Origin: a virus
Length of the DNA stretch: 28,967 nucleotides
Virus record (IMG/VR): IMGVR_UViG_3300023184_000409
Coordinates: 1 to 28,967 of that record
Strand: one strand, 5' to 3'
Shown: positions 1,836 through 28,967 of the stretch, one piece after another
Layout of the letters: every line of letters begins with the position of its first letter
Position numbering within the stretch: position 1 is the stretch's first letter
Program-made: the position numbers and the translations under genes
Notes under the pieces: model-generated
Seen by the model: only the letters and a program-made list of their open reading frames with translations
Database searches by the model: none
What the model was told of the DNA's origin: nothing

Positions 1836-2687
1836 ATGGAAATAATACCAAAAATAAATCAAGGATTTGTTTATATGCATACTAATATAAATAAAAATCA
1901 TAAAAATTATAATAAAAAATATATAGGTTATAAATCATTTTTTAAATACAACGGAAAAGAATCAAATTGGAAAACGTACATTGGTTCTAAAAATGTAGAA
2001 TTATTAAAAGATTTTAAAGAAATGGGGTGGAATGGATTTAAAAGAGATTATCTTTTTATAGGAAAATTAAAAGATGTTAGAGAGAAGGAAGTATATTATC
2101 ACAATTTGTATAATATAAATCTTAATAATGAATTTTACAATAAAGCTAAACAAACAAATTTTAAGTTTTCTACTAGCGGTAAAAAAATGTCAAATGATGA
2201 AAAAATTAAAAGAAGTAATAAAATGATGGGATATAGACATATTTTTAATAAAAAAACTATGGAATCGAAAATGGTTCCTCCTAATTTTAAAATAAATTTT
2301 AACGAATGGCAATATGGTAGACCATCAAATACCTCAAGGATATGGATTCATAACATGATAACCAAAGAAGAAAAATATATTTTAAATGTTTTATTAAAAA
2401 ATTTTGATAAGAATTTATGGAAAATTGGTAGGAATGAAAAAATGAAAGAAATTACTAAAAAAAATTTATTTTTTGGATGTAGGAAAAAAAAATCAATAAA
2501 CGCTAAAAGAAATATGAGTATTTCAAATATTAAAAATAAAAAATTTAAAGTTTTAAATATAAAAACAAAACAAGAATTTTGTTTTTATAGTTTAACTAAT
2601 TGTAAAAATGAATTAAATATGTCTATACATTTTGTTAATAAAATATATAACGGAAAAATTATAAATGATTATGTAAGAATTATGTAA
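1836..2687 (+). CDS. GIY-YIG homing-endonuclease-like protein
   Basis: A 283-residue, Lys/Asn-rich protein. Residues 10-31 hold GFVY followed by KKYIG, the two halves of a GIY-YIG core, and a Seg-like ESNWKTYIGS block follows at 42-51. A possible catalytic Glu lies near residues 83-85 (REKEVYY). Residues about 133-200 carry two 'HN..T.E' segments with a W.YGRPS linker, as seen in DNA-binding repeats of phage homing endonucleases. The last 50 residues (KVLNIKTKQEF..SLTNCKNELN) look like a NUMOD/IENR-type helix-turn-helix repeat. The gene runs plus strand between minus-strand 47 and 55, as expected for a free-standing mobile endonuclease gene. A late-type TATAAATA lies 7 bases before its ATG. 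Its target site is unknown. Confidence 0.75.
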   Translation: MEIIPKINQGFVYMHTNINKNHKNYNKKYIGYKSFFKYNGKESNWKTYIGSKNVELLKDFKEMGWNGFKRDYLFIGKLKDVREKEVYYHNLYNINLNNEFYNKAKQTNFKFSTSGKKMSNDEKIKRSNKMMGYRHIFNKKTMESKMVPPNFKINFNEWQYGRPSNTSRIWIHNMITKEEKYILNVLLKNFDKNLWKIGRNEKMKEITKKNLFFGCRKKKSINAKRNMSISNIKNKKFKVLNIKTKQEFCFYSLTNCKNELNMSIHFVNKIYNGKIINDYVRIM

Positions 2688-2720
2688 AAATGCCTATTTT
2701 TTTATTTTTAATGTTATACA

Positions 2721-3368
2721 TCAATTAAAATTTTTATTTGAAGTAGAATTTTTATTTTTAACTATATTGTTGTAATTACAAGAAAGCAGAGTTAACTCTT
2801 CTCTATATTTCTCATGAGTTTCATGTATATGTTTTTCCTTTTTAATTCTATTTCTAAATGCATTAAATGCAATTCTAGTAAAATACGAGAATGGATTCGT
2901 TCCTTTTTCTCTATTATATTTTTGTGCTATTAATGCTTTCATCATTCGAATGATTCCATCTCCTGCCATTTCTTCTCGATATGAATAGTTTATAAAGTTA
3001 CTAGCAAAACTTAATTTATTTGATATTTTACTAATCATTTGTGCTAAATTATCTGTTATATGTCCACTATCATAATAATTCATTATCTCCTCGTCAAACT
3101 CTTTTGGGTCTACGTAGAATTTCTTCTTATCTAAAGATTTTTTTTGTTTTTTATCTAATATTTCTTCTACTTCTGGGGTATCCTCTTCGTCAATATCATC
3201 GATATCAACATCCGCTTCGTAAGATTCGATTGGTAATAACCCTAAACGTGAATATTGTTCGGTTTCATCATCATCTAAATCTAGATTTTCAATTTCTGAT
3301 AATTGATCGTCTTCGATTAATTCTTCAAATCCGTAATTATCATCCGCTTTATATTTCTTTTTTCTCAT
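2721..3368 (-). CDS. 55: Late-transcription sigma factor gp55
   Basis: A 215-residue protein. Residues about 84-190 match the T4 gp55 core: KFYVDPKEFDEEI, then LSFASNFINYSYREEMAGDG (120-137), then NPFSYFTRIAFNAFRNRIKKEK (158-179). T4 gp55 has the equivalent 'QEMIADGI' and '[22 protein letters not shown]'. The family binds host RNA polymerase core and recognises the TATAAATA late promoter. Two oddities stand out. The first ~80 residues are a very acidic, Asp/Glu-rich extension compared with T4 gp55. The C-terminus (NKNSTSNKNFN) shows no sign of the hydrophobic SLDFLYE-type tail that binds the sliding clamp in T4. The gene overlaps the end of uvsW by 20 bases, so the two are probably co-translated. 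Confidence 0.9.
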   Translation of the reverse strand: MRKKKYKADDNYGFEELIEDDQLSEIENLDLDDDETEQYSRLGLLPIESYEADVDIDDIDEEDTPEVEEILDKKQKKSLDKKKFYVDPKEFDEEIMNYYDSGHITDNLAQMISKISNKLSFASNFINYSYREEMAGDGIIRMMKALIAQKYNREKGTNPFSYFTRIAFNAFRNRIKKEKHIHETHEKYREELTLLSCNYNNIVKNKNSTSNKNFN

Positions 3369-4767
3369 AATTGTATTTTTCTATCATATATAATTCTTCT
3401 CGTTCGATTAAATGTTTTTTACCATAAAATGTATTGTCTGCTATATCAAATATAAACGCCATATTTTTAGTTGGATGTAAACGCAATGCTCGACCAATCG
3501 ATTGCATGATTTTTATCTTTGCTTTCCCCGCAGTTGCAAAAATTATATTATGTAGATTAGGTATATTGATACCCGTACTAAAAATTTTTGAAATCGCCAC
3601 TACGATAACATCATTTCTTTCCTCCATTAAAGCTCTTATTTTTTCTCTTTCTTCGATTTCAGTAGATCCTCTAATAAAATAACATGGTCTTTGGGTTGTT
3701 TTTTGAAGTTCATCAAAAATATTAACACCATGATCTATTCTATCTACCATTATAATTGTATTGTTACTTAATTTCTTAGATAAATTACATATAATTTCAT
3801 TTCTTCTGACATTATTCATTAGAAATTCTAATTCGTTTTCGTATGCTTCGGTTGGTTTATCTCTATTGATTTTAATTTTAGGAATATTTCTGTGATTTAC
3901 CTTTAATATAAAAATTTTAAAATTTGAAATGTAGTTTTTTTGTTTTAAATCGTCTGTTTTTTCCTCATATACAATCGGTCCAAATTTTCCAATAATATTC
4001 CAACAATCCAATTTGCATGTAGGCATTGTTCCCGTAAACCCAAATCTATAATTCGTTGTTAAAAAATTAAAAATGTTATTTATTTGGTTATCTTTTTTAT
4101 TCCCATGACACTCATCTCCTAAAAATATTTTAACATCCGCTAAAAATGATAAATCCGTTTTTTCTGATAATAATATCTGCGAACCAGCAATAATAGTGGT
4201 CGCATCTGGGTCTGGTTTATTGTTTCCCGACCATTTAGTGACTTTACCCATACCGTATGATTTAAAGTCTTCTGCGGTCTGTTCTACGAGTTGTATTGAT
4301 GGTACTATAACAAGCGATTTTGCGTCATTATCTTTAATATTTTTTCTCATACTCTCTATTATAGAACACATGATGAGTGTTTTACCCCCCGCTGTAGGTA
4401 TTACGACTACTCCTCTACCTTGTTTAATTGCTTTATATATAGATTTCTGTTGATGTTCTCTATATGATAAATTATACATCTTAATATATGGCGTTTCAAA
4501 TCCAATATCGAAACACTTTGATAAATCCGAATCTATATTGAATTCTATTTGATTCAACCAAAGGAATTGTTTTATCTCATACAAAAGTCCTATGTCAAAC
4601 TTTCCAGATGGAGTTATCGCATATTTCCTTTGGGGTGCGAATCTTTTATTTCTAGAAAAAGATTTGAATGGAATTGAAAAATTTTCACGTATTAATGAAA
4701 ATATATTCTGATTAGATGTTAAAATCTGAGCTTGTTTTTTATTCTTCGATAATTCTAAAGTTATCAT
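3349..4767 (-). CDS. uvsW: UvsW-like DNA/RNA helicase
   Basis: A 472-residue superfamily 2 helicase. Motif I is PTAGGKT at 124-130, motif II is DECH at 218-221, motif III is TGT at 245-247, and motif VI is QSIGRALR at 422-429. The Q-like YREHQQ motif sits at 102-107. T4 UvsW is about 500 residues; it unwinds R-loops and branched DNA and switches replication from origin-initiated to recombination-dependent initiation. The first ~95 residues would be the small UvsW-type N-terminal domain. The gene starts 1 base after the stop of the uvsY-like gene and overlaps gp55 by 20 bases, forming a compact uvsY-uvsW-55 operon. No Shine-Dalgarno is seen. Confidence 0.95.
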   Translation of the reverse strand: MITLELSKNKKQAQILTSNQNIFSLIRENFSIPFKSFSRNKRFAPQRKYAITPSGKFDIGLLYEIKQFLWLNQIEFNIDSDLSKCFDIGFETPYIKMYNLSYREHQQKSIYKAIKQGRGVVVIPTAGGKTLIMCSIIESMRKNIKDNDAKSLVIVPSIQLVEQTAEDFKSYGMGKVTKWSGNNKPDPDATTIIAGSQILLSEKTDLSFLADVKIFLGDECHGNKKDNQINNIFNFLTTNYRFGFTGTMPTCKLDCWNIIGKFGPIVYEEKTDDLKQKNYISNFKIFILKVNHRNIPKIKINRDKPTEAYENELEFLMNNVRRNEIICNLSKKLSNNTIIMVDRIDHGVNIFDELQKTTQRPCYFIRGSTEIEEREKIRALMEERNDVIVVAISKIFSTGINIPNLHNIIFATAGKAKIKIMQSIGRALRLHPTKNMAFIFDIADNTFYGKKHLIEREELYMIEKYNYEKKEI

Positions 4768-4768
4768 A

Positions 4769-5167
4769 TTATGATAATTCTAACGCTAATAATTTAGAAG
4801 CATTACCTATGTCAAACGTCATAGAACTGAATATTTTTTCAATTTTTTCTAAATATTCAATCAATAAATCACATTCTTCTATAGTTAAAGAAATTTCCGA
4901 AATAGTTTTAGTAGAATCTACTTTTTCTTTTATAGCAACCTTCGGAACACCTTTTGGAAGTCCCGTTTCTTCAAATTTTCTAAGAACATCTTCTCTTAAT
5001 GATTTTTTCTTTTTTTCTAATTCGTTTTTTTGTCTCTTAGTTAAAATTAACCGCGAAACCCACTTATGTTTTAATGCTGGAAGCATTAGTTGTTTATCGA
5101 GAATGTTTATTTGATCTAATTTTAGATCCTCTAACAATTCTTCATTATATTTTGATAAAATATCCAT
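4769..5167 (-). CDS. uvsY: UvsY-like recombination mediator
   Basis: A 132-residue charged, helical protein, about the length of T4 UvsY (137). Residues 29-62 (PALKHKWVSRLILTKRQKNE..) parallel the T4 UvsY stretch with the 'YSKWLNKHSSIKKEM' pattern that contributes to ssDNA and UvsX contacts. The C-terminal third is helical with a DLLIEYLEKIEKI segment. The family loads the UvsX recombinase on gp32-coated ssDNA. Placement directly before uvsW supports the call. The sequence is divergent, so the call rests on this local pattern, length and context. Confidence 0.75.
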   Translation of the reverse strand: MDILSKYNEELLEDLKLDQINILDKQLMLPALKHKWVSRLILTKRQKNELEKKKKSLREDVLRKFEETGLPKGVPKVAIKEKVDSTKTISEISLTIEECDLLIEYLEKIEKIFSSMTFDIGNASKLLALELS

Positions 5168-5195
5168 AAGTATTAAGGTAGGATAATAATAGCAT

Positions 5196-5423
5196 ATGTT
5201 TAATAATTTTCAACTGTTAGTGGATAATTTACTGGAAAATATGAATTCTGTAGGTGATGTTTTCATGTCAGGAAATCAAGCTACGGGTAATGTTGTAACG
5301 GATCCTAACGTTAAGGTTGCAATGTCTATTGTTGGTGGAACTAATATTAAACGAAAGAAAAAGAAAAAGAACAGTAAAAGAAAATTTCCTACATTTAGAA
5401 GAACATTAGACACCTCCCTTTAA
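5196..5423 (+). CDS. Small basic protein with capsid-targeting-like N-terminus
   Basis: A 75-residue protein I do not recognise. Residues 1-14 (MFNNFQLLVDNLLE) form a short amphipathic helix ending in L-x-E, which fits the T4 gp21 prohead-protease site pattern. The middle is Gly/Asn/Val-rich. Residues about 52-70 are strongly basic (KRKKKKKNSKRK), which would suit DNA contact. An internal head protein is one possibility, by inference only. The gene is divergent from uvsY. Its TAA overlaps the ATG of the next gene as TAATG, so the two are translationally coupled. Confidence 0.6.
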   Translation: MFNNFQLLVDNLLENMNSVGDVFMSGNQATGNVVTDPNVKVAMSIVGGTNIKRKKKKKNSKRKFPTFRRTLDTSL

Positions 5424-5845
5424 TGGATACTGGACATTGGATATTGGAAGAAAATGTTAATATAGAACAAAAGTCTTTTGGTTTTATATATTGTATTGAA
5501 AATAATATAAATAAAAAAAAATATTTAGGAAAAAAACAACTGAATTTTAAATTAAGGAGAAAACCACTAAAAGGTAAAAAACGAGTTAGAATAGATTTTA
5601 AAGAATCAGACTGGAAATCTTATACCGGATCATCTAATGATTTAAATTCCGATATTATAAAGTATGGAATTGAAAATTTCACATTTAAAATATTAAAAAT
5701 ATGTAATTCTAAATGGGAATTGTCATATTATGAATGTAAATTTCAAATAGATTTCAATGTTTTATTACGAGATGATTATTATAATGGAACAATTCAATTA
5801 CGTATTGGAAGACCACCCAAGGGATTAAAAATTGTTGATAATTAA
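5423..5845 (+). CDS. Seg-like GIY-YIG endonuclease
   Basis: A 140-residue protein with GFIY at 20-23 and KKYLGKK at 32-38, the two GIY-YIG halves. An ESDWKSYTGSS block follows at 61-71, and YGIENFTFKIL leads to ELSYYECKFQI, whose Glu (about 104) is a candidate catalytic residue. The length and order match the catalytic domain of T4 Seg-type free-standing homing endonucleases. It lacks the extended DNA-binding region of the copy at 1836, with only a short basic tail (RIGRPPKGLK). The start overlaps the preceding stop as TAATG. Its target is unknown. Confidence 0.75.
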   Translation: MDTGHWILEENVNIEQKSFGFIYCIENNINKKKYLGKKQLNFKLRRKPLKGKKRVRIDFKESDWKSYTGSSNDLNSDIIKYGIENFTFKILKICNSKWELSYYECKFQIDFNVLLRDDYYNGTIQLRIGRPPKGLKIVDN

Positions 5846-5868
5846 TATATTTTTCATATAATGTATGT

Positions 5869-6351
5869 ATGAACATACATGATAGAATATATTTTTCTTA
5901 CTATATAAAAGAGAATATTATCATTTTTGATGTATTTGAATATATAGAACAGTTGGGTGCTGATAATATTGATTTTATGTATGAGTGGAATCTATTTAAA
6001 AATAATAAAGTAGTTTTTAAATCTCAAACTATAAAACAATTTTTAGAAAATAAAATTAAAAATGATATTCAAAAAATTATAAATCATTCTACTAAAATAA
6101 ATTGTAGGATTCTATGTTTTTTTACTATGAAAGATAGTTTTACTGAATGGGCTTCATATTTTGATGATCCACATAAGTTTATCAAATTATGTAAAACAAT
6201 TTGTAAGAAAAATTTACCAAATTTCATTGAAAATAAAGAAATTTTAGTTTCATTTCAAAATAAAAAAGGTACATTTTGTGAAATTCCTTGCTTGATACCG
6301 TCAGGTGAAGATGAGGACTTATTACATCATTTAATAAAAAAGATAAAATAA
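5869..6351 (+). CDS. Hypothetical protein
   Basis: A 160-residue protein with no motif I recognise. It is rich in Ile, Lys, Phe and Asn, with no signal peptide or membrane segment. A central Lys-rich helical part (EWNLFKNNKVVFKSQTIKQF) is followed by a Cys-containing C-terminal half. It lies 23 bases after the GIY-YIG gene. A TATAATGT box ends 4 bases before the ATG and may be a weak late-type promoter. Confidence 0.6.
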   Translation: MNIHDRIYFSYYIKENIIIFDVFEYIEQLGADNIDFMYEWNLFKNNKVVFKSQTIKQFLENKIKNDIQKIINHSTKINCRILCFFTMKDSFTEWASYFDDPHKFIKLCKTICKKNLPNFIENKEILVSFQNKKGTFCEIPCLIPSGEDEDLLHHLIKKIK

Positions 6352-16543: not shown

Positions 16544-16888
16544 ATGAATTATAAGTTTCCTAAACATATAACTGGCGATACGTGGGATGGTATAAGTTCA
16601 ATAACTATATTATCACAAGGTTCTGCTATAGATTTAACTAATTGTGATGTTAATGTACAAATAAGATCTTGGAAAAATTTAGCATCACCAATTGTATTTG
16701 AATTTTCAACAATAACGAATAATATATTAATTATCTTACCAACATTAGGAGTTATAAATATACCTCCGCAAATAGTTGATATTCCTGTTGGATTATACCG
16801 GTATGATTTAAAGGTAAAATTCCCAACAGGGGTTATTAAAACTTATTTACAAGGAGATTGGGAAATTATCCCAAGTATAACAAGATGA
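16544..16888 (+). CDS. Small beta-sandwich structural protein
   Basis: A 114-residue protein of alternating short strands. The HITGDTWDGISSITIL (8-23) start, the AIDLTNCDVNVQIRSW strand and the VGLYRYDLKVKFPTGVIKTY end recall small Ig-like or baseplate/tail accessory proteins in phages. I recognise this 'GDTW..DLT..G.Y.YD' pattern but cannot name the family. It sits 6 bases after the portal stop, and its stop overlaps the next start as ATGA. Confidence 0.65.
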   Translation: MNYKFPKHITGDTWDGISSITILSQGSAIDLTNCDVNVQIRSWKNLASPIVFEFSTITNNILIILPTLGVINIPPQIVDIPVGLYRYDLKVKFPTGVIKTYLQGDWEIIPSITR

Positions 16889-17271
16889 GTGATTGTAATG
16901 TTGTTATAGATCAAAATATAGAAAATATAAATGTCATAATAGACGATAAAAATCCAAATTTGGGAGTTTATTACACATTATTATCCAATATAAATTCAAA
17001 TTACAATAATATTTCTAATGTTACGAATAATGTAATGATGTTATCTGCTAAGTGGGTAGAAACCGCTATAGAAATGGATACATTACAAGATTCAGCAACT
17101 GCTAAGTGGGTAGAAACCGCTATAGAAATGGATACATTACAAGATTCAACAACTGCTAAGTGGGTAGAAACCGCTATAGAAATGGATACATTACAAATTG
17201 GATTTAGTGGCGGCTGGCAAGACACGACAGAATATATCAGTAAAGGCGTTATTGATATGGGATATTTTTAG
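16885..17271 (+). CDS. Repeat-containing fibre-like protein
   Basis: A 128-residue protein started at the ATG overlapping the previous stop (ATGA), rather than at an upstream ATG at 16858 that would overlap the previous gene by 31 bases. Residues about 55-107 hold three tandem 18-residue repeats (AKWVETAIEMDTLQDS plus two residues). The C-terminus SGGWQDTTEYISKGVIDMGYF differs and may be a tip or attachment domain. The 18-residue period, with Trp, Val and Leu spaced along it, suits a straight coiled coil (18 residues is about five turns). Confidence 0.6.
   Translation: MSDCNVVIDQNIENINVIIDDKNPNLGVYYTLLSNINSNYNNISNVTNNVMMLSAKWVETAIEMDTLQDSATAKWVETAIEMDTLQDSTTAKWVETAIEMDTLQIGFSGGWQDTTEYISKGVIDMGYF
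17047..17200 (+). repeat. Three tandem 54-bp repeats in the 16885 gene
   Basis: Copies start at 17047, 17101 and 17155, exactly 54 bases apart. The first two are near identical; the third is cut short before the C-terminal domain. The DNA identity, including codons, suggests recent duplication. Confidence 0.9.
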
Positions 17272-20053: not shown

Positions 20054-20734
20054 ATGGCTAGTTTATTATTTCCACTTCAATTTGAAAGACAGTATAGCGG
20101 ACCACTTGATCAAGACCAAGTGTTTACGAATACTTCTGATAGACTAACATATCTAACCAACCCTCTTAGATATGCGGGTCAAATTGTATCAGATTTACAA
20201 ACACAAAAAATATATCAATTAAATACAGCAAAAGACACTTGGATTGAAATTGGTTCTGGATCTGGTTCTAGTTCCACCGATACTGAAGTCCGATCACTAA
20301 CATCAAATTGGAACTCTACATATTCAACAGTAAGCTCATTGTCATCTAACTGGGATTCTACGTACACAAATGTACAATCCAATTCTGCAAACTGGCAAAC
20401 AGCTTATGCTTATGTTAGTGCTAATTCTGTAAATTTAACAGCTAATAATATTTTTGTTACAAATGATTTAACAGTTACTGATACTGTTTCTGCGAAATAC
20501 TTTCAAGGAACTTTAATTGATTGGATGACATTAGTTAGAGGATATAAGACAACACCAACATTATTAGCAACAATAGGAACTGGGGAAGTATATACATATG
20601 TATATGCAACCACAGCATCCGATAAAACATATTATAGATACATAGCAACCAATGGAAGTGAAGATTCTTTCTATGGAAATTTCACCAACCCTAGTCTAAG
20701 TAATCTGATAACAACCAAAAAAATAATTTTATAA
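20054..20734 (+). CDS. Fibre-associated protein with 14-residue repeats
   Basis: A 226-residue protein. Residues 1-70 (LFPLQFERQYSGPLDQDQVF..) may be an attachment domain; IGSGSGSSS is a linker. Residues about 82-125 carry three 14-residue Trp-anchored repeats (SNWNSTYSTVSSLS, SNWDSTYTNVQSNS, ANWQTAYAYVSANS). The C-terminal part, after LIDWMTLVRGYKTTP, is a Thr/Ser-rich beta domain. I recognise no receptor-binding family. It is the third gene of the fibre run. Confidence 0.65.
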   Translation: MASLLFPLQFERQYSGPLDQDQVFTNTSDRLTYLTNPLRYAGQIVSDLQTQKIYQLNTAKDTWIEIGSGSGSSSTDTEVRSLTSNWNSTYSTVSSLSSNWDSTYTNVQSNSANWQTAYAYVSANSVNLTANNIFVTNDLTVTDTVSAKYFQGTLIDWMTLVRGYKTTPTLLATIGTGEVYTYVYATTASDKTYYRYIATNGSEDSFYGNFTNPSLSNLITTKKIIL

Positions 20735-20738
20735 TTTT

Positions 20739-23700
20739 ATGGCACAAAGACAAGTATACACAGATACCAATTATAGCTCATTAACATTTCTTGATAATGA
20801 TACAATATATGTTGACTATTTGGCAACTCTCACAATAACTACGGATACTTCCGCAATTGGTGGTATTACTTTTGGTGGAAACGGTGCTGGAAAAGTTGTT
20901 ATAAATAATACTTCAACTACAACGCCGATTTTTATAAAAGTTTCTGGTTCTATTACTCTGGTCAGAGATGCTATTTTTGAATCTAATGGGAATCTTATTG
21001 AAATAGGAACTGGAGATGGTTCAACGAGAACATACAATCTACCTACAGGGGCTGGTAGTTCTAAGTATAGTGATTTAGGAGCATGTTGGGTTGATAGAGG
21101 AGCTACATTTAGAGATGGTACATCATATAAAACAACTTACGCTCAAGTATCTAGTTTAAGTAATAAGCTTTCCGCTTATACATTTGGCGATGTTTTTTCT
21201 CAAGATACAACAGCAAACACAATTACTTTTTTAAAACCCGTTCCAAACGGCTGTAAGGTTTATGTACCGAATATACAAATAATTGGAACGCATGTTTCAA
21301 ATTCTGCATTTTCAAATGCTGGAAGAATGAATTTGAACTACACTTCTCTTAGCAAAATTGTTAATTTTTTTCTCAACGGAGCGGTAGATTTTAAACTCAA
21401 TTATTGCGGATTAGGTTTCTGTCAAACTACATCTTTTTCAAACTCAAGAAGAATGGCTGGTGGGGTTACTATTTTAAATACTGGGTTTAACTGGTCATAT
21501 TATTTGGATATATATGGTAGTGCTATTGGAGCAGTAATAAAAAATGTTTATTATGTATCCAACCTACATGCTGGGAGTATTTACCCAACAGCCCAAGGAC
21601 CAGGATTATATATAGAAAAATATACTTCAATTTTTGATAAAGACGATTGTGGAGATCCAACGTCAGGTAACAGTAACAATATCTTGTTACAAATTTCTTG
21701 TCCAGCTGGAAAAGTGTATGATGTTTATCTTGGATCCGCAAGTCAAGTTTTTAGTATTAATACTACTGGTACTACATATGACAATATAGTTATAGTCCCT
21801 ACGGGGAATATTGTTTCATTTTTTAGTAGATCAATATCTAATGTTACAAATAATGGTTCGGGCTTAATAAGAATAACCACAAGTGCAAATATAATTGTCG
21901 GCACTAATCAAATTGTAAAAATTACCGGTGTAGGGGGTGTTACTAATGCAAATGGTACGTGGAGAATAAATCAAATTAGCAATACACAATTTGATTTAAT
22001 TGGAAGTTCATTTAGTGGTACATATACTTCTGCTACTGGTATAGCAAATAGCTATGCAAGTAACAACAGGACATTATTTTATGTTTCAGATAACGCAACA
22101 AAAAACGTACTTACAAACATTTCTATAATACCAGCATATGAAGTGCCTGTGGATCCGACTCACGGAACATTACATCGAGGCATTTATACAATTTTTTCAA
22201 ATACTGGAAACAACTATAACACATTTACTAACTGTACATTTTCTCTACAAAGCAATTACGGAGCAGCTCCAATGTTAGTTGAACGTGGTACATATAATAC
22301 ATATAATAAAGTAACAATAACCGATTCTACAGGCACTACATACGCACAAAGAAATTTTCAATTAGACCAAGAATCTTATGGTATAGTAGTTGCCAATTGG
22401 ACTAGTTTATCAGCATCTCAAATATCTAATCAAGGTGGAACATATACTTATTTTGGATCAAGAATTGAACGTGTGTTATTGGATGAAGATACACCAGCTA
22501 CTGATTTTGGATATACTTTTTCCTATACTGGAATTGATTCTCCTTCCATACTTGCTTTTACAAATATAAACAAAACAACAGGTAGAGTGTTTGCTCTCAA
22601 TTCTTTATCAGCCTCCATTCTATCTATGGTACCGAGTCCATTAAACACTGGACCTTATACAGTAAAAGAATCTAAACTGTATATAAGAAATACTGGTGAT
22701 AGTGTTGCCTATGAAACGTCTGTATATGGAGGAATTACAGGTATAGACAGCTTCTGTGCAAGAGATGATTCGATGGGAACCGTACAGGCTAAGGATTTTG
22801 CTTCTACTATTGATACTCCATATCAATATGCTCTTTCAATGAGGCGTCCTAATGGGGCATATACCACTCCAGTACTGGTTTATGGTTCTAGGCTTACTGG
22901 TGGAGCTAGTCAAGTAGCAAACTATAACGTTGGAAACACTGTTGCTCAAACTATAGCTACCGGACTAACTGCATTTGGAACTGTGGATTTTATTAATTCC
23001 TCAGAATTAAGAATATGCAACATCACAACACTTTCCTCAACACCAAACCCAAATTATCTATGGGGTCATTTTTTAGATAACGTAACAACATCAGGACTGA
23101 GCGGTACAGCACAAGGTATAAGAAATATTACTACAGGCTACGTGCCCCCGTCAAATGTTTTTACTAACCAATACGAATATATACCTAGCAAAACTATTGA
23201 TACTTTAAATAGTGCTCTCACCAGTCTTCCAGCAGAAACTAGAATAAAAAACCAAGTACAATTTAAAGTACATGTCATTAGAGATATTAAAGACTATTAT
23301 AATAGCACATATGATCAAAGGTTTTTTGGTGCAGCTATCGATGTTAAATTAGATCCAAATTACATCGCTCCTGTGAGCGATTTGACTTATTTAAATTTAA
23401 CCCTCAATGGCGGTTATATTTCAATATATGATGATATAGGTGAATTAAAATATTACACTAATCAAGATCAACTTATAACGTTACCTTTGGATTCTGTTGG
23501 CACGTGGACTTATAAATATGCAAAATATGGATATAAATTAGGTCAAGGCCAATTTAGTATCAACCAAAAAACTAACGAAATAGCTCCAATAGTATCTCCG
23601 GATTTTTATTTGACAGAACTATCTGTATATCTGGTTTCTGCTTATAATACATTTTCTACTACGCAGAATATTTATGATTATCTTTCATTCTACAGAACAA

Positions 23701-25781
23701 CGAGTGCTGGTCTAGCATATGGAGATTTAAATCAATATTCCTCATCTTTAGATATTGGTTCTAAACGATTAATTTTATCTGATACTGCTTCTCCAGCGTT
23801 TAGTTATGATGGTTCTAAATTTATTATAAAATCACCATCTATTCAAGGTAGAGACATAGCAACAACTGGTGGTATAATTTTATCCGGATCAAACACATTT
23901 TCAAATATCACGTTAAATGCCAACGTTTCTTCAAATGCTGTTAATAGTTTAAATACAGTAAACGTAAACGGAATTTTAACATATAATACGAATACATCGT
24001 ACAACATATCTTACACTAATACTAATGTACTAACTGCAAAAAATGATGGTACTGGTATAATCAACATTAAGCGTATTAATTCATCTATTACAGATGCTAC
24101 TGATCCACAAATTCAATCATTTGAACCAACATATATTAGTTTAACCTTACAAAGTGGTTATATTGCAATTTATGATAACAATGGTGTGCAGCAATATTAT
24201 ACAAATTCCGATCAAACAATTGAATTACCGTATGCTGCTACGGGAACATGGACATATAAAATTGCTAAATATGGTTACAAATTAGCATCTGGTTCATTTA
24301 CTATTAATTCAGCTGTTGGTGGAACAGTAACAATTGCACCAATCTATGTTCAAGATATATATGTCTCTGATACTGTTGGAAACGTAATATCATATACAAC
24401 ATTTTATAAGACTCAGCAAATTTATGATTATCTATCATACTACAGAACAACGAGTGCTGGTCTGTCTTCTGGAGATTTAAATTCTTACATTTCTACATTG
24501 GATATTGGTTCTAAAAATATTATTCTGTTTGATTCTGCTTCACCAGCATTTAGTTATAATGGTTCTACATTTACTTTAAATACTTTAAATCTGTCTGGTG
24601 CAGCTATTACAACAACTGGTACAATAAGTTTATCTGGTAATAGTTCAATTTCTGATATTACATTAACAACAGATGTAATCGATCAAACACCAGCCAATTT
24701 AACAAACGTTAATATCAATGGTACGTTAGCTTACAACACTAATTCACCAGCAACAATTACATATACCAATACAACAGTATCGACTGTGGTTAATAATGGT
24801 TCTGGTACTGTTTTAATTAAAAGAATTAATTCCAGTATTAATAATGCAACTGATCCGGAGATTGATGATTATGCACCGACAATTATAAACATAACACCAA
24901 ACGGGGGTAGTGTTGCAATCTATGATAATTCAAACGTAAGACAATATTTTATTACTACGACATCGACCATAGTTCTTCCTTTTGATGCTACTGGTACGTG
25001 GTCGTATAAAGTTGCAAAATACGGTTTCCATTTAATAGATCAATCATTTACTATAAATTCATCTACGGGAGCAACAATTACTATTACTCCAAATTACATT
25101 CCAGATAATTTCATTGATGCGCTTGAAGCCAATGTAGTAAACTACACAGATTTAAATAATGCATCTGAAATACATGACTATCTTATGTATTTCCAAACTT
25201 TATCTACTGGAATTAATTTTGGTGATTTGGAATCCGAATCATTTGGAACTATCACATTTACTAATGGTCTTGCATTGAGTGCAAATGCTTCTTCTATGGT
25301 ATCCTTGTCTGGTAACACTACAATATTAAATTCAACATATTTGACTGATGATATCACATTAGTTTCAACAAACGGGAGTATTACACAACACAATGGAAAT
25401 ACAATTTCTGATGGTATTAAATTGAGAGCAAATAATCTTGATAGTGAAATTTATTTTAATACCGTTGATTCAATTACATTTTATCCAAATGCAACAGACA
25501 GAGATAATAACGTTAACGGCAACATTACACTAACGAGTGCTACTATTTACAGATTTAAATATGGATCTACGGTAAGTGGTATAACATTTACAAATTATGC
25601 ATATGCAAGAGTTACGGTAGGAGGAGCTACATTATTAGTTGCTACTCCAATTGCTCTCGGTACTAATACAATTGATTTTGGTGTCACTGGTAACTTGCAA
25701 ACTCTTAACAACAATCTAAGAATCGTTAATACTGGTGTGCAGAAGTCAAGTATATTAGTTCCACACACACAAAATATATAA
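20739..25781 (+). CDS. Very large fibre / adhesin-like virion protein (1680 aa)
   Basis: The largest protein in the window. Residues 1-105 are beta-rich with a TYNLPTG turn. The middle ~780 residues are Ser/Thr/Asn-rich beta structure with many short strands, such as TNANGTWRINQISNTQFDLI. From residue ~887 come three copies of a ~250-residue module. Each has a G[TS]W[TS]YK.AKYG[YF] Ig/PEGA-like strand pair, then IYDYLSYYRTTSAGL..GDL, then DIGSK..L.D.ASPAFSY; the third copy is degenerate. The end of the protein (IALGTNTIDFGVTGNLQTLN) is a different beta domain. No enzyme motif was recognised. It is probably part of the adsorption apparatus, judged from composition and context. Confidence 0.7.
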   Translation: MAQRQVYTDTNYSSLTFLDNDTIYVDYLATLTITTDTSAIGGITFGGNGAGKVVINNTSTTTPIFIKVSGSITLVRDAIFESNGNLIEIGTGDGSTRTYNLPTGAGSSKYSDLGACWVDRGATFRDGTSYKTTYAQVSSLSNKLSAYTFGDVFSQDTTANTITFLKPVPNGCKVYVPNIQIIGTHVSNSAFSNAGRMNLNYTSLSKIVNFFLNGAVDFKLNYCGLGFCQTTSFSNSRRMAGGVTILNTGFNWSYYLDIYGSAIGAVIKNVYYVSNLHAGSIYPTAQGPGLYIEKYTSIFDKDDCGDPTSGNSNNILLQISCPAGKVYDVYLGSASQVFSINTTGTTYDNIVIVPTGNIVSFFSRSISNVTNNGSGLIRITTSANIIVGTNQIVKITGVGGVTNANGTWRINQISNTQFDLIGSSFSGTYTSATGIANSYASNNRTLFYVSDNATKNVLTNISIIPAYEVPVDPTHGTLHRGIYTIFSNTGNNYNTFTNCTFSLQSNYGAAPMLVERGTYNTYNKVTITDSTGTTYAQRNFQLDQESYGIVVANWTSLSASQISNQGGTYTYFGSRIERVLLDEDTPATDFGYTFSYTGIDSPSILAFTNINKTTGRVFALNSLSASILSMVPSPLNTGPYTVKESKLYIRNTGDSVAYETSVYGGITGIDSFCARDDSMGTVQAKDFASTIDTPYQYALSMRRPNGAYTTPVLVYGSRLTGGASQVANYNVGNTVAQTIATGLTAFGTVDFINSSELRICNITTLSSTPNPNYLWGHFLDNVTTSGLSGTAQGIRNITTGYVPPSNVFTNQYEYIPSKTIDTLNSALTSLPAETRIKNQVQFKVHVIRDIKDYYNSTYDQRFFGAAIDVKLDPNYIAPVSDLTYLNLTLNGGYISIYDDIGELKYYTNQDQLITLPLDSVGTWTYKYAKYGYKLGQGQFSINQKTNEIAPIVSPDFYLTELSVYLVSAYNTFSTTQNIYDYLSFYRTTSAGLAYGDLNQYSSSLDIGSKRLILSDTASPAFSYDGSKFIIKSPSIQGRDIATTGGIILSGSNTFSNITLNANVSSNAVNSLNTVNVNGILTYNTNTSYNISYTNTNVLTAKNDGTGIINIKRINSSITDATDPQIQSFEPTYISLTLQSGYIAIYDNNGVQQYYTNSDQTIELPYAATGTWTYKIAKYGYKLASGSFTINSAVGGTVTIAPIYVQDIYVSDTVGNVISYTTFYKTQQIYDYLSYYRTTSAGLSSGDLNSYISTLDIGSKNIILFDSASPAFSYNGSTFTLNTLNLSGAAITTTGTISLSGNSSISDITLTTDVIDQTPANLTNVNINGTLAYNTNSPATITYTNTTVSTVVNNGSGTVLIKRINSSINNATDPEIDDYAPTIINITPNGGSVAIYDNSNVRQYFITTTSTIVLPFDATGTWSYKVAKYGFHLIDQSFTINSSTGATITITPNYIPDNFIDALEANVVNYTDLNNASEIHDYLMYFQTLSTGINFGDLESESFGTITFTNGLALSANASSMVSLSGNTTILNSTYLTDDITLVSTNGSITQHNGNTISDGIKLRANNLDSEIYFNTVDSITFYPNATDRDNNVNGNITLTSATIYRFKYGSTVSGITFTNYAYARVTVGGATLLVATPIALGTNTIDFGVTGNLQTLNNNLRIVNTGVQKSSILVPHTQNI
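23397..25640 (+). repeat. Three ~250-residue modules in the 1680-aa protein
   Basis: Copies begin at about 23397 (LTLNGGYISIYDD), 24141 (LTLQSGYIAIYDN) and 24891 (ITPNGGSVAIYDN), 744 and 750 bases apart. The Trp/Tyr strand pair and the IYDYL/SAGL/GDL block are kept in the first two. In the third the later half diverges (IHDYLMYFQTLSTGINFGDL). The end of copy 3 is approximate. Confidence 0.85.
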
Positions 25782-25820
25782 TATTAATATTTAGTATCAA
25801 TTAGAACTAAATATTAATAT
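25781..25820. repeat. 15-bp perfect inverted repeat covering the start of the 25819 gene
   Basis: ATATTAATATTTAGT (25781-25795) and ACTAAATATTAATAT (25806-25820) are perfect reverse complements with a 10-base loop. The left arm starts on the last base of the previous stop codon and the right arm includes the first two bases of the next ATG, so the hairpin fills the whole gap. No T-run follows. Confidence 0.85.
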
Positions 25821-27939
25821 GTCAGATAAAAGAATTACCGATTTACCAGAATTATTATACCCATCATTAAGTGCCGTATTTCCAATTGTAGATGTTGATA
25901 ATACAACTAAGAAAATAAAGTTTTCAACATTAAATTCTTTTTTAAATGCTGATGCTATAGGTGAGATGAGAACGTTGATGCGTAATAATTCCGCACAATG
26001 GGATTATCAAGGAACAGATTTAAAAATATTAAGTTCTTTATGGGATAACTCATCAACATTAGTACAAGATAATTCATCTAAATGGGCAGTAGATACAACT
26101 ATAAGAGGATTATCTTCATTTTGGCAATCTGTTTATAGTGTAGTTAATACTAATAGTTCTATTAATTGGAATTATCAAGGTACAGATTTAAAATCATTAT
26201 CATCATACTGGCAAAATGTTACTACGTGGGTTAATAGTAATAGTTCTATATTGATAGATGCTAAAACTTGGACAAATAGTAATAGTGCTACATTAATAAG
26301 TTCTAAAACATGGGTAAACTCCAATAGTGCTACTGAATTAGCTGCTACATCATGGGTAAACTCCAATAGTAGTAAGGAATTAGCTGCTACATCATGGGTA
26401 AACTCCAATAGTGCTACTGAATTAGCTGTTACATCATGGGTCAACTCTAATAGTAGTAAGGAATTAGCTGTTACTACTTGGGTAAACTCCAATAGTGCTA
26501 CCGAATTAGCTGTTACATCATGGGTAAACTCCAATAGTAGTAAGGAATTAGCTGTTACTACTTGGGTAAACTCCAATAGTGCTACCGAATTAGCTGTTAC
26601 TACTTGGGTAAACTCCAATAGTTCTACCGAATTAGCTGTTACATCATGGGTCAACTCTAATAGTAGTAAGGAATTAGCTGTTACTACTTGGGTAAACTCC
26701 AATAGTGCTACCGAATTAGCTGTTACATCATGGGTAAACTCCAATAGTAGTAAGGAATTAGCTGTTACATCATGGGTCAACTCTAATAGTAGTAAGGAAT
26801 TAGCTGTTACATCATGGGTCAACTCTAATAGTAGTAAGGAATTAGCTGTTACATTATGGGTAAACTCCAATAGTGCTACTGAATTAGCTGTTACATCATG
26901 GGTAAACTCCAATAGTTCTACAGAATTAGCTGTTACATCATGGGTAAACTCCAATAGTGCTACCGAATTAGCTGTTACATCATGGGTCAACTCTAATAGT
27001 AGTAAGGAATTAGCTGTTACATCATGGGTAAACTCCAATAGTAGTAAGGAATTAGCTGTTACTACTTGGGTAAACACCAATAGTTCTACCGAATTAGCTG
27101 TTACATCATGGGTAAACTCCAATAGTTCTACAGAATTAGCTGTTACATCATGGGTAAACTCCAATAGTTCTACAGAATTAGCGGTTACATCATGGGTAAA
27201 CTCCAATAGTTCTAATTTTGATTCGATTTATAGTACAGTAAACACAAATTCATCATCTTGGTTATCCGATTTACCGAAAACTCAAGAATTTTTTGATGAT
27301 TTTTTAACATTAGATTCGTCTATATCATTACCGAATTCATTTTTAAATAGAGCAAATGCTGGCGGAACTATTTATATTGAAAGTGAAGATTCAAAACAAG
27401 GAATATTGGTTATAAATTGCAATACAATTCCAAATACATTTCAACGTGGAGGTGTAACATCCAATAAAACAATTCATTTCGGGCAGGGAACCGAATATCG
27501 ATTAATATTTTCAGCAAGAATTGGATCAAATCAGTTTGATGGAACTATTTTAGGACAATTAGAAATGGGATTCCATGACCAGTTATTAACAAATAGTACG
27601 GTTGCTCAAAATGGATGTTATTTTATATCGGAAAACGGTATGACGTGGCAAGCGGTAACAATTTCTGGTGCCGCATCACAAACGACAAATACATTTATTC
27701 CTTGCGATAATAGTTGGAGAGTTTTTGAAATAAACGTTGACCGATTTGCGAACAAAGTGGATTTCAAAGTAAATAATATAGTTGTAGCAACACACACAAC
27801 CGGAATACCACAAGCATCAGGCGCGCAAACGTGTATAGGATATAGAACATTTAGATTAACAAACGACGCATATAATGTTGAATTGAGATTAGATTGGCAA
27901 TCTCTAATTATCAAAAGACAAGTTAATCTATGGTTATAA
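25819..27939 (+). CDS. Repeat-stalk fibre with lectin-like tip
   Basis: A 706-residue protein. The N-terminus DKRITDLPELLYPSLSAVFP is a fibre-type attachment head. Residues about 45-135 hold degenerate Trp-anchored repeats (SSFWQSVYSVVNTNSS). Residues 137-472 are 24 copies of a 14-residue unit, typically WVNSNS[SA][KT]ELAVTS, likely an elongated trimeric shaft. The last ~215 residues (FFDDFLTL.., IYIESEDSKQGILVINC, YRLIFSARIG, FEINVDRFANKVDFKVNNIVVAT) have the alternating-strand pattern of concanavalin-A-like lectin/jelly-roll domains and may bind the host receptor. The lectin call is by pattern. Its start codon lies inside an inverted repeat. Confidence 0.75.
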   Translation: MSDKRITDLPELLYPSLSAVFPIVDVDNTTKKIKFSTLNSFLNADAIGEMRTLMRNNSAQWDYQGTDLKILSSLWDNSSTLVQDNSSKWAVDTTIRGLSSFWQSVYSVVNTNSSINWNYQGTDLKSLSSYWQNVTTWVNSNSSILIDAKTWTNSNSATLISSKTWVNSNSATELAATSWVNSNSSKELAATSWVNSNSATELAVTSWVNSNSSKELAVTTWVNSNSATELAVTSWVNSNSSKELAVTTWVNSNSATELAVTTWVNSNSSTELAVTSWVNSNSSKELAVTTWVNSNSATELAVTSWVNSNSSKELAVTSWVNSNSSKELAVTSWVNSNSSKELAVTLWVNSNSATELAVTSWVNSNSSTELAVTSWVNSNSATELAVTSWVNSNSSKELAVTSWVNSNSSKELAVTTWVNTNSSTELAVTSWVNSNSSTELAVTSWVNSNSSTELAVTSWVNSNSSNFDSIYSTVNTNSSSWLSDLPKTQEFFDDFLTLDSSISLPNSFLNRANAGGTIYIESEDSKQGILVINCNTIPNTFQRGGVTSNKTIHFGQGTEYRLIFSARIGSNQFDGTILGQLEMGFHDQLLTNSTVAQNGCYFISENGMTWQAVTISGAASQTTNTFIPCDNSWRVFEINVDRFANKVDFKVNNIVVATHTTGIPQASGAQTCIGYRTFRLTNDAYNVELRLDWQSLIIKRQVNLWL
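26227..27234 (+). repeat. 24 tandem 42-bp repeats (14-aa units)
   Basis: TGG of the first copy is at 26227 and of the twenty-fourth at 27193, a separation of 966 = 23 x 42 bases. Period is exact. Units fall into three protein types (SSKELAVT, SATELAVT, SSTELAVT) and two DNA types (GTAAACTCC and GTCAACTCT), mixed along the array. Outer copies 1-2 and 24 are degenerate. Confidence 0.95.
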
Positions 27940-27971: not shown

Positions 27972-28967
27972 ATGTCATATAATATAACTCCTATACTTTC
28001 AACGGGACCCTTAAATTCAAACGTAGGATTTAATAATTCCTGGGTTACGATTGATAATGATTTTTCTAGACCGTTATTCGCTCAATTAACTTATGCAACA
28101 AATTTAAACGAATTAATAACATATATTGATGATGTAGAATCTTTAATTATAGTATCAAATACTCTTTTAGATACACTAACATCAAATATTCAATATGTTT
28201 TAAATTCTATAGATGCATATACGAGTTACTTTTTATCATTAACAGCAGACGCTAATAATATAAAACTTAATAGTGATGAATTGGTATTATTATCATATAA
28301 TATAACATCAATATTAGTAGACAAACAAGATCAGTTAATAGGACTAAGTCATTCTCTTACTTCTATACAAGTAGATAAGCAAGATCAGTTAATTTCATTA
28401 GGTAATAGTTTAACTTCTATTCAAGTAGACAAACAAGATCAGTTAATAGGACTAAGTCATTCTCTTACTTCTATACAAGTAGACAAACAAGATCAGTTAA
28501 TTTCACTAAGTCATTATTTAACTGCCAGCATAACTAATATAGATTCGAATACTGATCATTTAGAGAATCTAATAGGAACAACTAATAATTTTTTAAATTT
28601 AATTTATGCATTTGAAGGTATTATTGATAATAGTATTATTAATCTACAGTCTATCGTAATAGATAAACAAGATCAGTTAATAGGACTAAGTCATTCTCTT
28701 ACTTCTATACAAGTAGACAAACAAGATCAGTTAATTACTTTATTACATCAATTAACTGCTAATACTGATACATTAGAGATTAATACTGATACATTGGAAT
28801 CTTTAATAGAATCTTTAACTTCTATTCAAGTAGATAAACAGAATCAGTTAATTACTTTAGGTCATAGTTTAACATCTATTCAAGTAGATAAACAAGATCA
28901 GTTAATAGGACTAAGTCATTCTCTTACTTCGATTCAAGTAGATAAACAAGATCAGTTAATTACTTTA
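27972..28967 (+). CDS. Repeat-rich fibre-like protein (partial, right edge)
   Basis: ATG at 27972 opens a frame of 332 codons with no stop before the window end, so the gene is incomplete. The first ~110 residues (GPLNSNVGFNNSWVTIDNDF..) include a helical region. From about residue 113 there are nine copies of an 18-residue unit near SIQVDKQDQLIGLSHSLT in three groups, separated by related helical segments (NTDTLEINTDTLESLI). Hydrophobics at unit positions 2, 10, 13 and 17 fit a 7+11 coiled coil. A fibre or tail-spike shaft is likely. Confidence 0.75.
   Translation, partial: MSYNITPILSTGPLNSNVGFNNSWVTIDNDFSRPLFAQLTYATNLNELITYIDDVESLIIVSNTLLDTLTSNIQYVLNSIDAYTSYFLSLTADANNIKLNSDELVLLSYNITSILVDKQDQLIGLSHSLTSIQVDKQDQLISLGNSLTSIQVDKQDQLIGLSHSLTSIQVDKQDQLISLSHYLTASITNIDSNTDHLENLIGTTNNFLNLIYAFEGIIDNSIINLQSIVIDKQDQLIGLSHSLTSIQVDKQDQLITLLHQLTANTDTLEINTDTLESLIESLTSIQVDKQNQLITLGHSLTSIQVDKQDQLIGLSHSLTSIQVDKQDQLITL
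28308..28967 (+). repeat. Nine 54-bp (18-aa) repeats in three groups
   Basis: Four tandem copies at 28308-28523, two at 28650-28757 and at least three at 28821 to the edge. Copies share long identical DNA blocks (GATCAGTTAATAGGACTAAG recurs), so recombination between copies would change shaft length. Confidence 0.9.

Follow-up and report, generated by a model that had tools for sequence, protein, structure and literature searches.

A regular array of twenty-four 14-residue units in a fibre-like gene of a predicted T4-like phage fragment

The window analysed here, that is the whole stretch of 28,967 bases of a virus record taken from a metagenomic virus collection, contains a gene in which a unit of 42 bp is repeated 24 times in frame. 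What does such an array build, and how did it reach its present length? The reading that we prefer, with a probability of about 0.58, is that the product of this gene is an accessory protein of a T4-like phage, a fibre or adhesin composed of an attachment domain, a mainly alpha-helical trimeric rod and a globular tip.

Genomic setting of the array

Judged by its sequence, the source of the window is a fragment of a T4-like phage. Its portal protein belongs to phrog_213 and matches those of T4-like phages at approximately 29%; for the capsid protein, taken from one relative (L009), the figure against such phages is about 33-34%. Other matches in the window are to a late sigma factor, a helicase, a primase and a tail sheath stabiliser. 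The array-bearing gene sits within the block of structural genes, downstream of the tail sheath stabiliser and portal genes. The features to which we refer are the following.

20739-25781, + strand: large upstream gene, 1680 aa, presumed to be of fibre or baseplate type; C-terminal part kept in L007, L009 and L010
25819-27939, + strand: array-bearing fibre-like gene, 706 aa, open frame; match to phrog_24159 (tail fiber protein), E 1.5e-8
25819-25950, + strand: RITDLPEL-type N-terminal domain, presumed to serve virion attachment; likeness to a 214-aa protein of L022
25951-26226, + strand: irregular coil segments, akin to coils that relatives carry in other genes
26227-27234, + strand: repeat array, 24 units of 42 bp; core unit WVNSNS[AS][TK]ELAVT[ST] (14 aa)
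26419-26558, + strand: copied block of 140 bp, with an exact second copy at 26629-26768, five units on
27235-27936, + strand: C-terminal domain, 234 aa, presumed globular tip; sub-threshold match to PF22237, no confident AlphaFold2 fold
27972-28967, + strand: next gene, open at the window end; 18-aa (54-bp) repeat VDKQDQLIGLSHSLTSIQ

The 1680-aa gene gave no informative family match. In L007 and L009 its homologue runs straight into the neck genes without any array gene in between; those of L007, where the families were tested, are of the head-tail adaptor and head-closure types. In L010 the homologue is 87% identical over the last 552 residues and the array gene is absent as well: one finds instead a 90-aa open reading frame on the minus strand, then a gene of 210 aa that weakly matches the repeats of the gene starting at 27972. 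As the array gene is missing from the same place in all three relatives, it looks like accessory cargo.

The first-pass annotation had described the array as a fibre shaft. This is supported by the position of the gene, which lies between large structural-type genes and what in relatives are the neck genes, and by the diverged 14-residue units which the long fibre-type genes of relatives hold; the phrog_24159 match adds weakly. The best stretch of that match (residues 355-505) covers only the repeats and the first residues beyond them, neither the tip alone nor the N-terminus alone matched this family, and composition may drive it.

Several minor observations concern the surroundings of the gene. 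The repeat VDKQDQLIGLSHSLTSIQ, at 28297-28961 in the gene starting at 27972, is a second candidate for a repeat-built coil; for the N-terminus of that gene, matches were obtained to an open frame of 550 aa in the L014 record (L040; 44% over 41 aa) and to one in the L006 record. The contigs L002, L003 and L004 end at or shortly beyond their homologue of gene 20054-20734, which suggests that the gene block which follows breaks assemblies. The T4 late-promoter word, TATAAATA, occurs at chance level and was set aside.

Period of the array and variation between its units

Each of the 24 units begins with a tryptophan, in frame, from 26227 to 27234, and all 23 spacings are exactly 14 residues, without insertion or deletion. 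The array and its perfect period, as first annotated, are therefore real. Tandem Repeats Finder reported 26309-27214 with period 42, 21.6 copies and a score of 1238 (reporting threshold 50). The description "exact 42-bp repeat" is right about the period but not about the sequence, since the 24 units comprise 12 different 14-mers and 17 different 42-mers. Units 1, 2 and 24 are diverged; the 21 core units (3 to 23) have a mean DNA identity of 88.5% and 14 DNA variants. Likewise, the three protein variants announced earlier exist at residues 7-8 only (Ala-Thr in 7, Ser-Lys in 9 and Ser-Thr in 5 of the 21 core units), and the two synonymous DNA variants at codons 2 and 4 only, where linked silent states divide the same units 16 to 5, one of the 16 having an extra change in codon 4.

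Could the array be a flexible or disordered linker, regular only because it was amplified recently? Its content in Ser, Asn and Thr is indeed high, and both AlphaFold2 models described below are low in mean confidence, residues 143-179 lying under pLDDT 50 in the aligned one. Against this stand the exact period, free of indels, the invariance of Trp1, Asn3, Asn5 and Ser6 in 24 of 24 units, and that of Glu9, Leu10, Ala11 and Thr13 in the 21 core units despite silent changes at codons 11 and 13. We consider such a linker unlikely.

Two further candidates from this region were rejected. A 343-aa open frame on the minus strand opposite the array (26175-27206) was judged an artefact, since a repeat period divisible by three is probably all that keeps it open, and a match of the array to Pfam BBS2_GAE was put down to chance or composition.

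Related units in other records

We searched 16 related records with the array protein. Nine gave matches, over the coil segments or the N-terminus and mostly at residues 48-190, and only the L004 record gave one across the array itself. The L004 protein has a super-repeat of 42 residues; of the three distinct 14-residue units that compose it, one, TNTNSAFDLAARTF, resembles the unit of the window. The 214-aa protein of L022 has a similar N-terminus (38% identity over 61 aa, pairwise E 8e-8), a single V-S-S-N-S unit and then a different C-terminal domain.

The fibre-type coils of relatives (L004 6680-10897, L024, L026 and L022) are built on the same 14-residue unit with V/T..N/T-S-A, in L004 with up to 15 units in register. 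Their units are however more diverged than those of the window (126-bp period and 70-75% match in L004; 42-bp arrays and 71-89% match in L024), and where they carry a tryptophan it is mostly at position 9, whereas it is at position 1 in the window array. No related array of this length and uniformity occurs in the 24 sources scanned. One protein, at 2343-6107 on the minus strand of L026, combines NTASG beta-roll repeats (matching PF21300, LbR_Ice_bind) with 14-residue coil units, and recalls the way in which trimeric adhesins join a head to a stalk.

Searches of viral contigs with the whole protein and with the tip returned no close relative, and none of the collections searched yielded a near relative that spans the array. 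Records very near the genome of the window may be omitted from both, so that a near relative may well exist in nature. Two restrictive exact patterns of the array were unmatched in viral contigs, the second in genome contigs too.

Hydrophobic periodicity and fold of the array

The annotation had stated that no heptad register puts only hydrophobic residues in the core. This is true of the array: on each of three scales, a period of 3.5 residues explains only 0.00-0.02 of the variance in hydrophobicity of the averaged unit, and the second heptad has a Glu at an 'a' position. On the Kyte-Doolittle scale, 0.24 of the power lies at period 2.0 and none at 3.5. This favours a shaft of beta type, in which each unit would form a 10-residue strand (E-L-A-V-T-S-W-V-N-S) followed by a four-residue turn (N-S-x-x), the strands stacking into a sheet or solenoid at approximately 0.5 nm per unit. 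On the other two scales, however, the period 2.0 holds only 0.05-0.09.

The related units behave differently. In 112 sequence windows from 22 locus/strand sets, which take in the array gene itself, the hydrophobicity of the non-anchor positions has its peak at 3.5 residues; positions -10, -3, +11 and +18 are hydrophobic in 76, 88, 56 and 51% of cases. We rechecked this on three scales with all 112 windows, with 104 (8 windows from unrelated proteins removed) and with 39 (at most 50% identity): 3.5 was the top period in 9 of 9 combinations, with p of 0.0007 or less in a shuffle over positions, which does not fully correct for relatedness. Two of the three scales rank a register with Asn at position d (N@d) first; on the third, the register Ser6/Trp9/Tyr13/Val2 is equal or slightly better, and since this second register comes so close, the Asn need not be a core residue. 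Not every stretch gives the same signal: in a 280-residue stretch of L004, 3.5 leads on one of three scales and 2.0 and 2.34 lead on the others; in the averaged 14-mers of L004 the period 3.5 accounts for only 0.04-0.20 of the variance; and residues 45-136, the irregular stretch upstream of the array, have no significant period between 3.3 and 3.75 (p 0.09-0.14). A first positional profile was dropped because it mixed in the beta-roll NTASG repeats and left out L004.

Structure models were divided too. AlphaFold2 run on the single sequence of the last eight units and the tip gave 10-residue strands in the array, with block pLDDT values of 53-87, and Foldseek found no PDB match to this model at E<=0.001. 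PMC11795689 describes confident but unrealistic beta-solenoids given by AlphaFold2 for perfect repeats, and we regard these strands as an artefact of that type. When 16 relatives were aligned to residues 1-206 (17 sequences), AlphaFold2 gave helices instead: 44-58, 65-86, 93-114 and 122-142 before the array and 169-203 within it, all with low confidence. The model is a weak one, with a mean pLDDT of 56 and few of the aligned rows extending into the array, and a comparison of the family profile with solved structures gave no match. Caution is needed, as single-chain AlphaFold2 gave opposite folds for such an array, depending on whether an alignment was supplied and on the stretch given.

The earlier suggestion of a beta or mixed fold is thus retained in part: beta may still hold, but related units show a heptad pattern and a helix appears when an alignment is given. 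We consider the beta shaft rather unlikely, and lean towards a helix for the array.

The two ends of the protein

In the aligned model, again with low confidence, the N-terminal domain has short strands at residues 25-27 and 32-34. As for the C-terminal domain, the name "lectin-like" given to it at first has a single Pfam match behind it: PF22237 (SO2946-like_C), at E 4.1e-5 and 24.1 bits, below the curated cut-off of 27. A lectin-like tip is possible. The tip matched nothing in phage records at E<=1, nothing in the 16 related records (a search run without a positive control) and nothing in NCBIfam; the PDB gave no credible match, and AlphaFold2 without alignment no confident fold. Matches to nanobodies were attributed to chance or composition.

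A proposed helical rod and its comparison with known systems

We propose that the N-terminal domain would attach the protein and that the rod would hold out a C-terminal binding tip. The rod would be a parallel trimer, mainly alpha-helical, each 14-residue unit making two heptads. The first, V-x-x-N-S-x-x, would be similar to an N@d layer in a trimeric coiled coil (V occurs in 23 units, N and S in all 24), while the second, E-L-A-V-T-S-W, would be atypical. With a helical rise of approximately 0.15 nm per residue, the 336 residues of the array, if helical, would span about 50 nm, or about 2 nm per unit. We infer the trimer, the helix, the attachment, the function of the tip and the change of length by unit number.

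Trimeric adhesin stalks provide one comparison. According to PMC6839023 and PMC4786415, such stalks contain V/IxxNxxx heptads in which the Asn at position d binds chloride. The V-x-x-N heptad of those N@d stalks (UspA1, SadA) is also found in the window, once per unit, and there too a repeat-built rod would stand between anchor and head. The second heptad of the window differs by its Glu at 'a', and no sequence match to a solved stalk was obtained. A putative tail protein of Aeromonas phage 13AC503A (OQ622094) has the same 42-bp period in approximately 18 copies; its unit PYGLTAGYLPDLVA is unrelated in sequence, and we rejected it as a relative, keeping it as an analogy only.

The array seems to follow a well-known plan of phage-fibre construction with unusual regularity, and does not look like a new kind of system. 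It is a tidy natural example in which to study how the rods of phage fibres grow longer: out of a mixed, older coil, a single sub-unit seems to have been multiplied into 24 near-uniform copies.

History of the units and repeat number

By which process would this have happened? In the mechanism that we propose, one type of 14-residue unit would have been amplified by recombination or slippage from an older and more varied coil. Repeated unequal exchange had been suggested at the outset. In its favour, units are mosaic: all four combinations occur at 14 of 45 site pairs (10 sites with the minor state in at least 2 of the 21 core units), and a block of 140 bp is exactly copied. Neighbouring units, however, do not resemble each other more than units far apart do (Mantel r 0.007, p 0.40), and 0 of 20 neighbour pairs are identical. 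The data fit exchange or conversion across the array; recurrent mutation may be the source of the mosaic site pairs.

The number and order of the units could also be partly a product of the assembly of a repetitive locus. The metagenomic origin of the record, the 140-bp exact repeat inside the array and the ends of L002, L003 and L004 within the same gene block speak for this. On the other hand, that block is the only exact repeat of at least 84 bp at unit-multiple distances in the array, and the frame is intact through all 24 units. We find an assembly effect hardly probable.

A bolder reading would make the array a tunable ruler, the unit number changing by recombination within a phage population and setting the reach of the tip. 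Each module of 14 residues would contribute a Trp and a buried Asn ring, or else a single beta strand, perhaps in a rod fold not yet solved; the collections searched gave no related array of such modules. This reading appears unlikely to us. In the literature on fibre repeats with copy-number change, we found no title on this type of array. PMC4546147 reports that the numbers of repeat units differ between related Campylobacter group II phages and proposes recombination or slipped-strand mispairing; the repeat regions concerned link genome modules, whereas the array of the window sits in a fibre gene.

Within the present group of phages, two observations are indirect signs that copy number may change: the single unit of the 214-aa L022 protein, and a differing repeat number in another gene, at 16858-17271 on the + strand. 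The 54-bp repeat WVETAIEMDTLQDSTTAK of that gene (17045-17196) gives three 18-aa units in the window and likewise in L002; L003 and L012, which do not differ from one another there, have two, and one related segment is present in L005, L007, L008, L009 and L011 (L007 and L011 being the same there). The repeat number of this gene is different between related phages.
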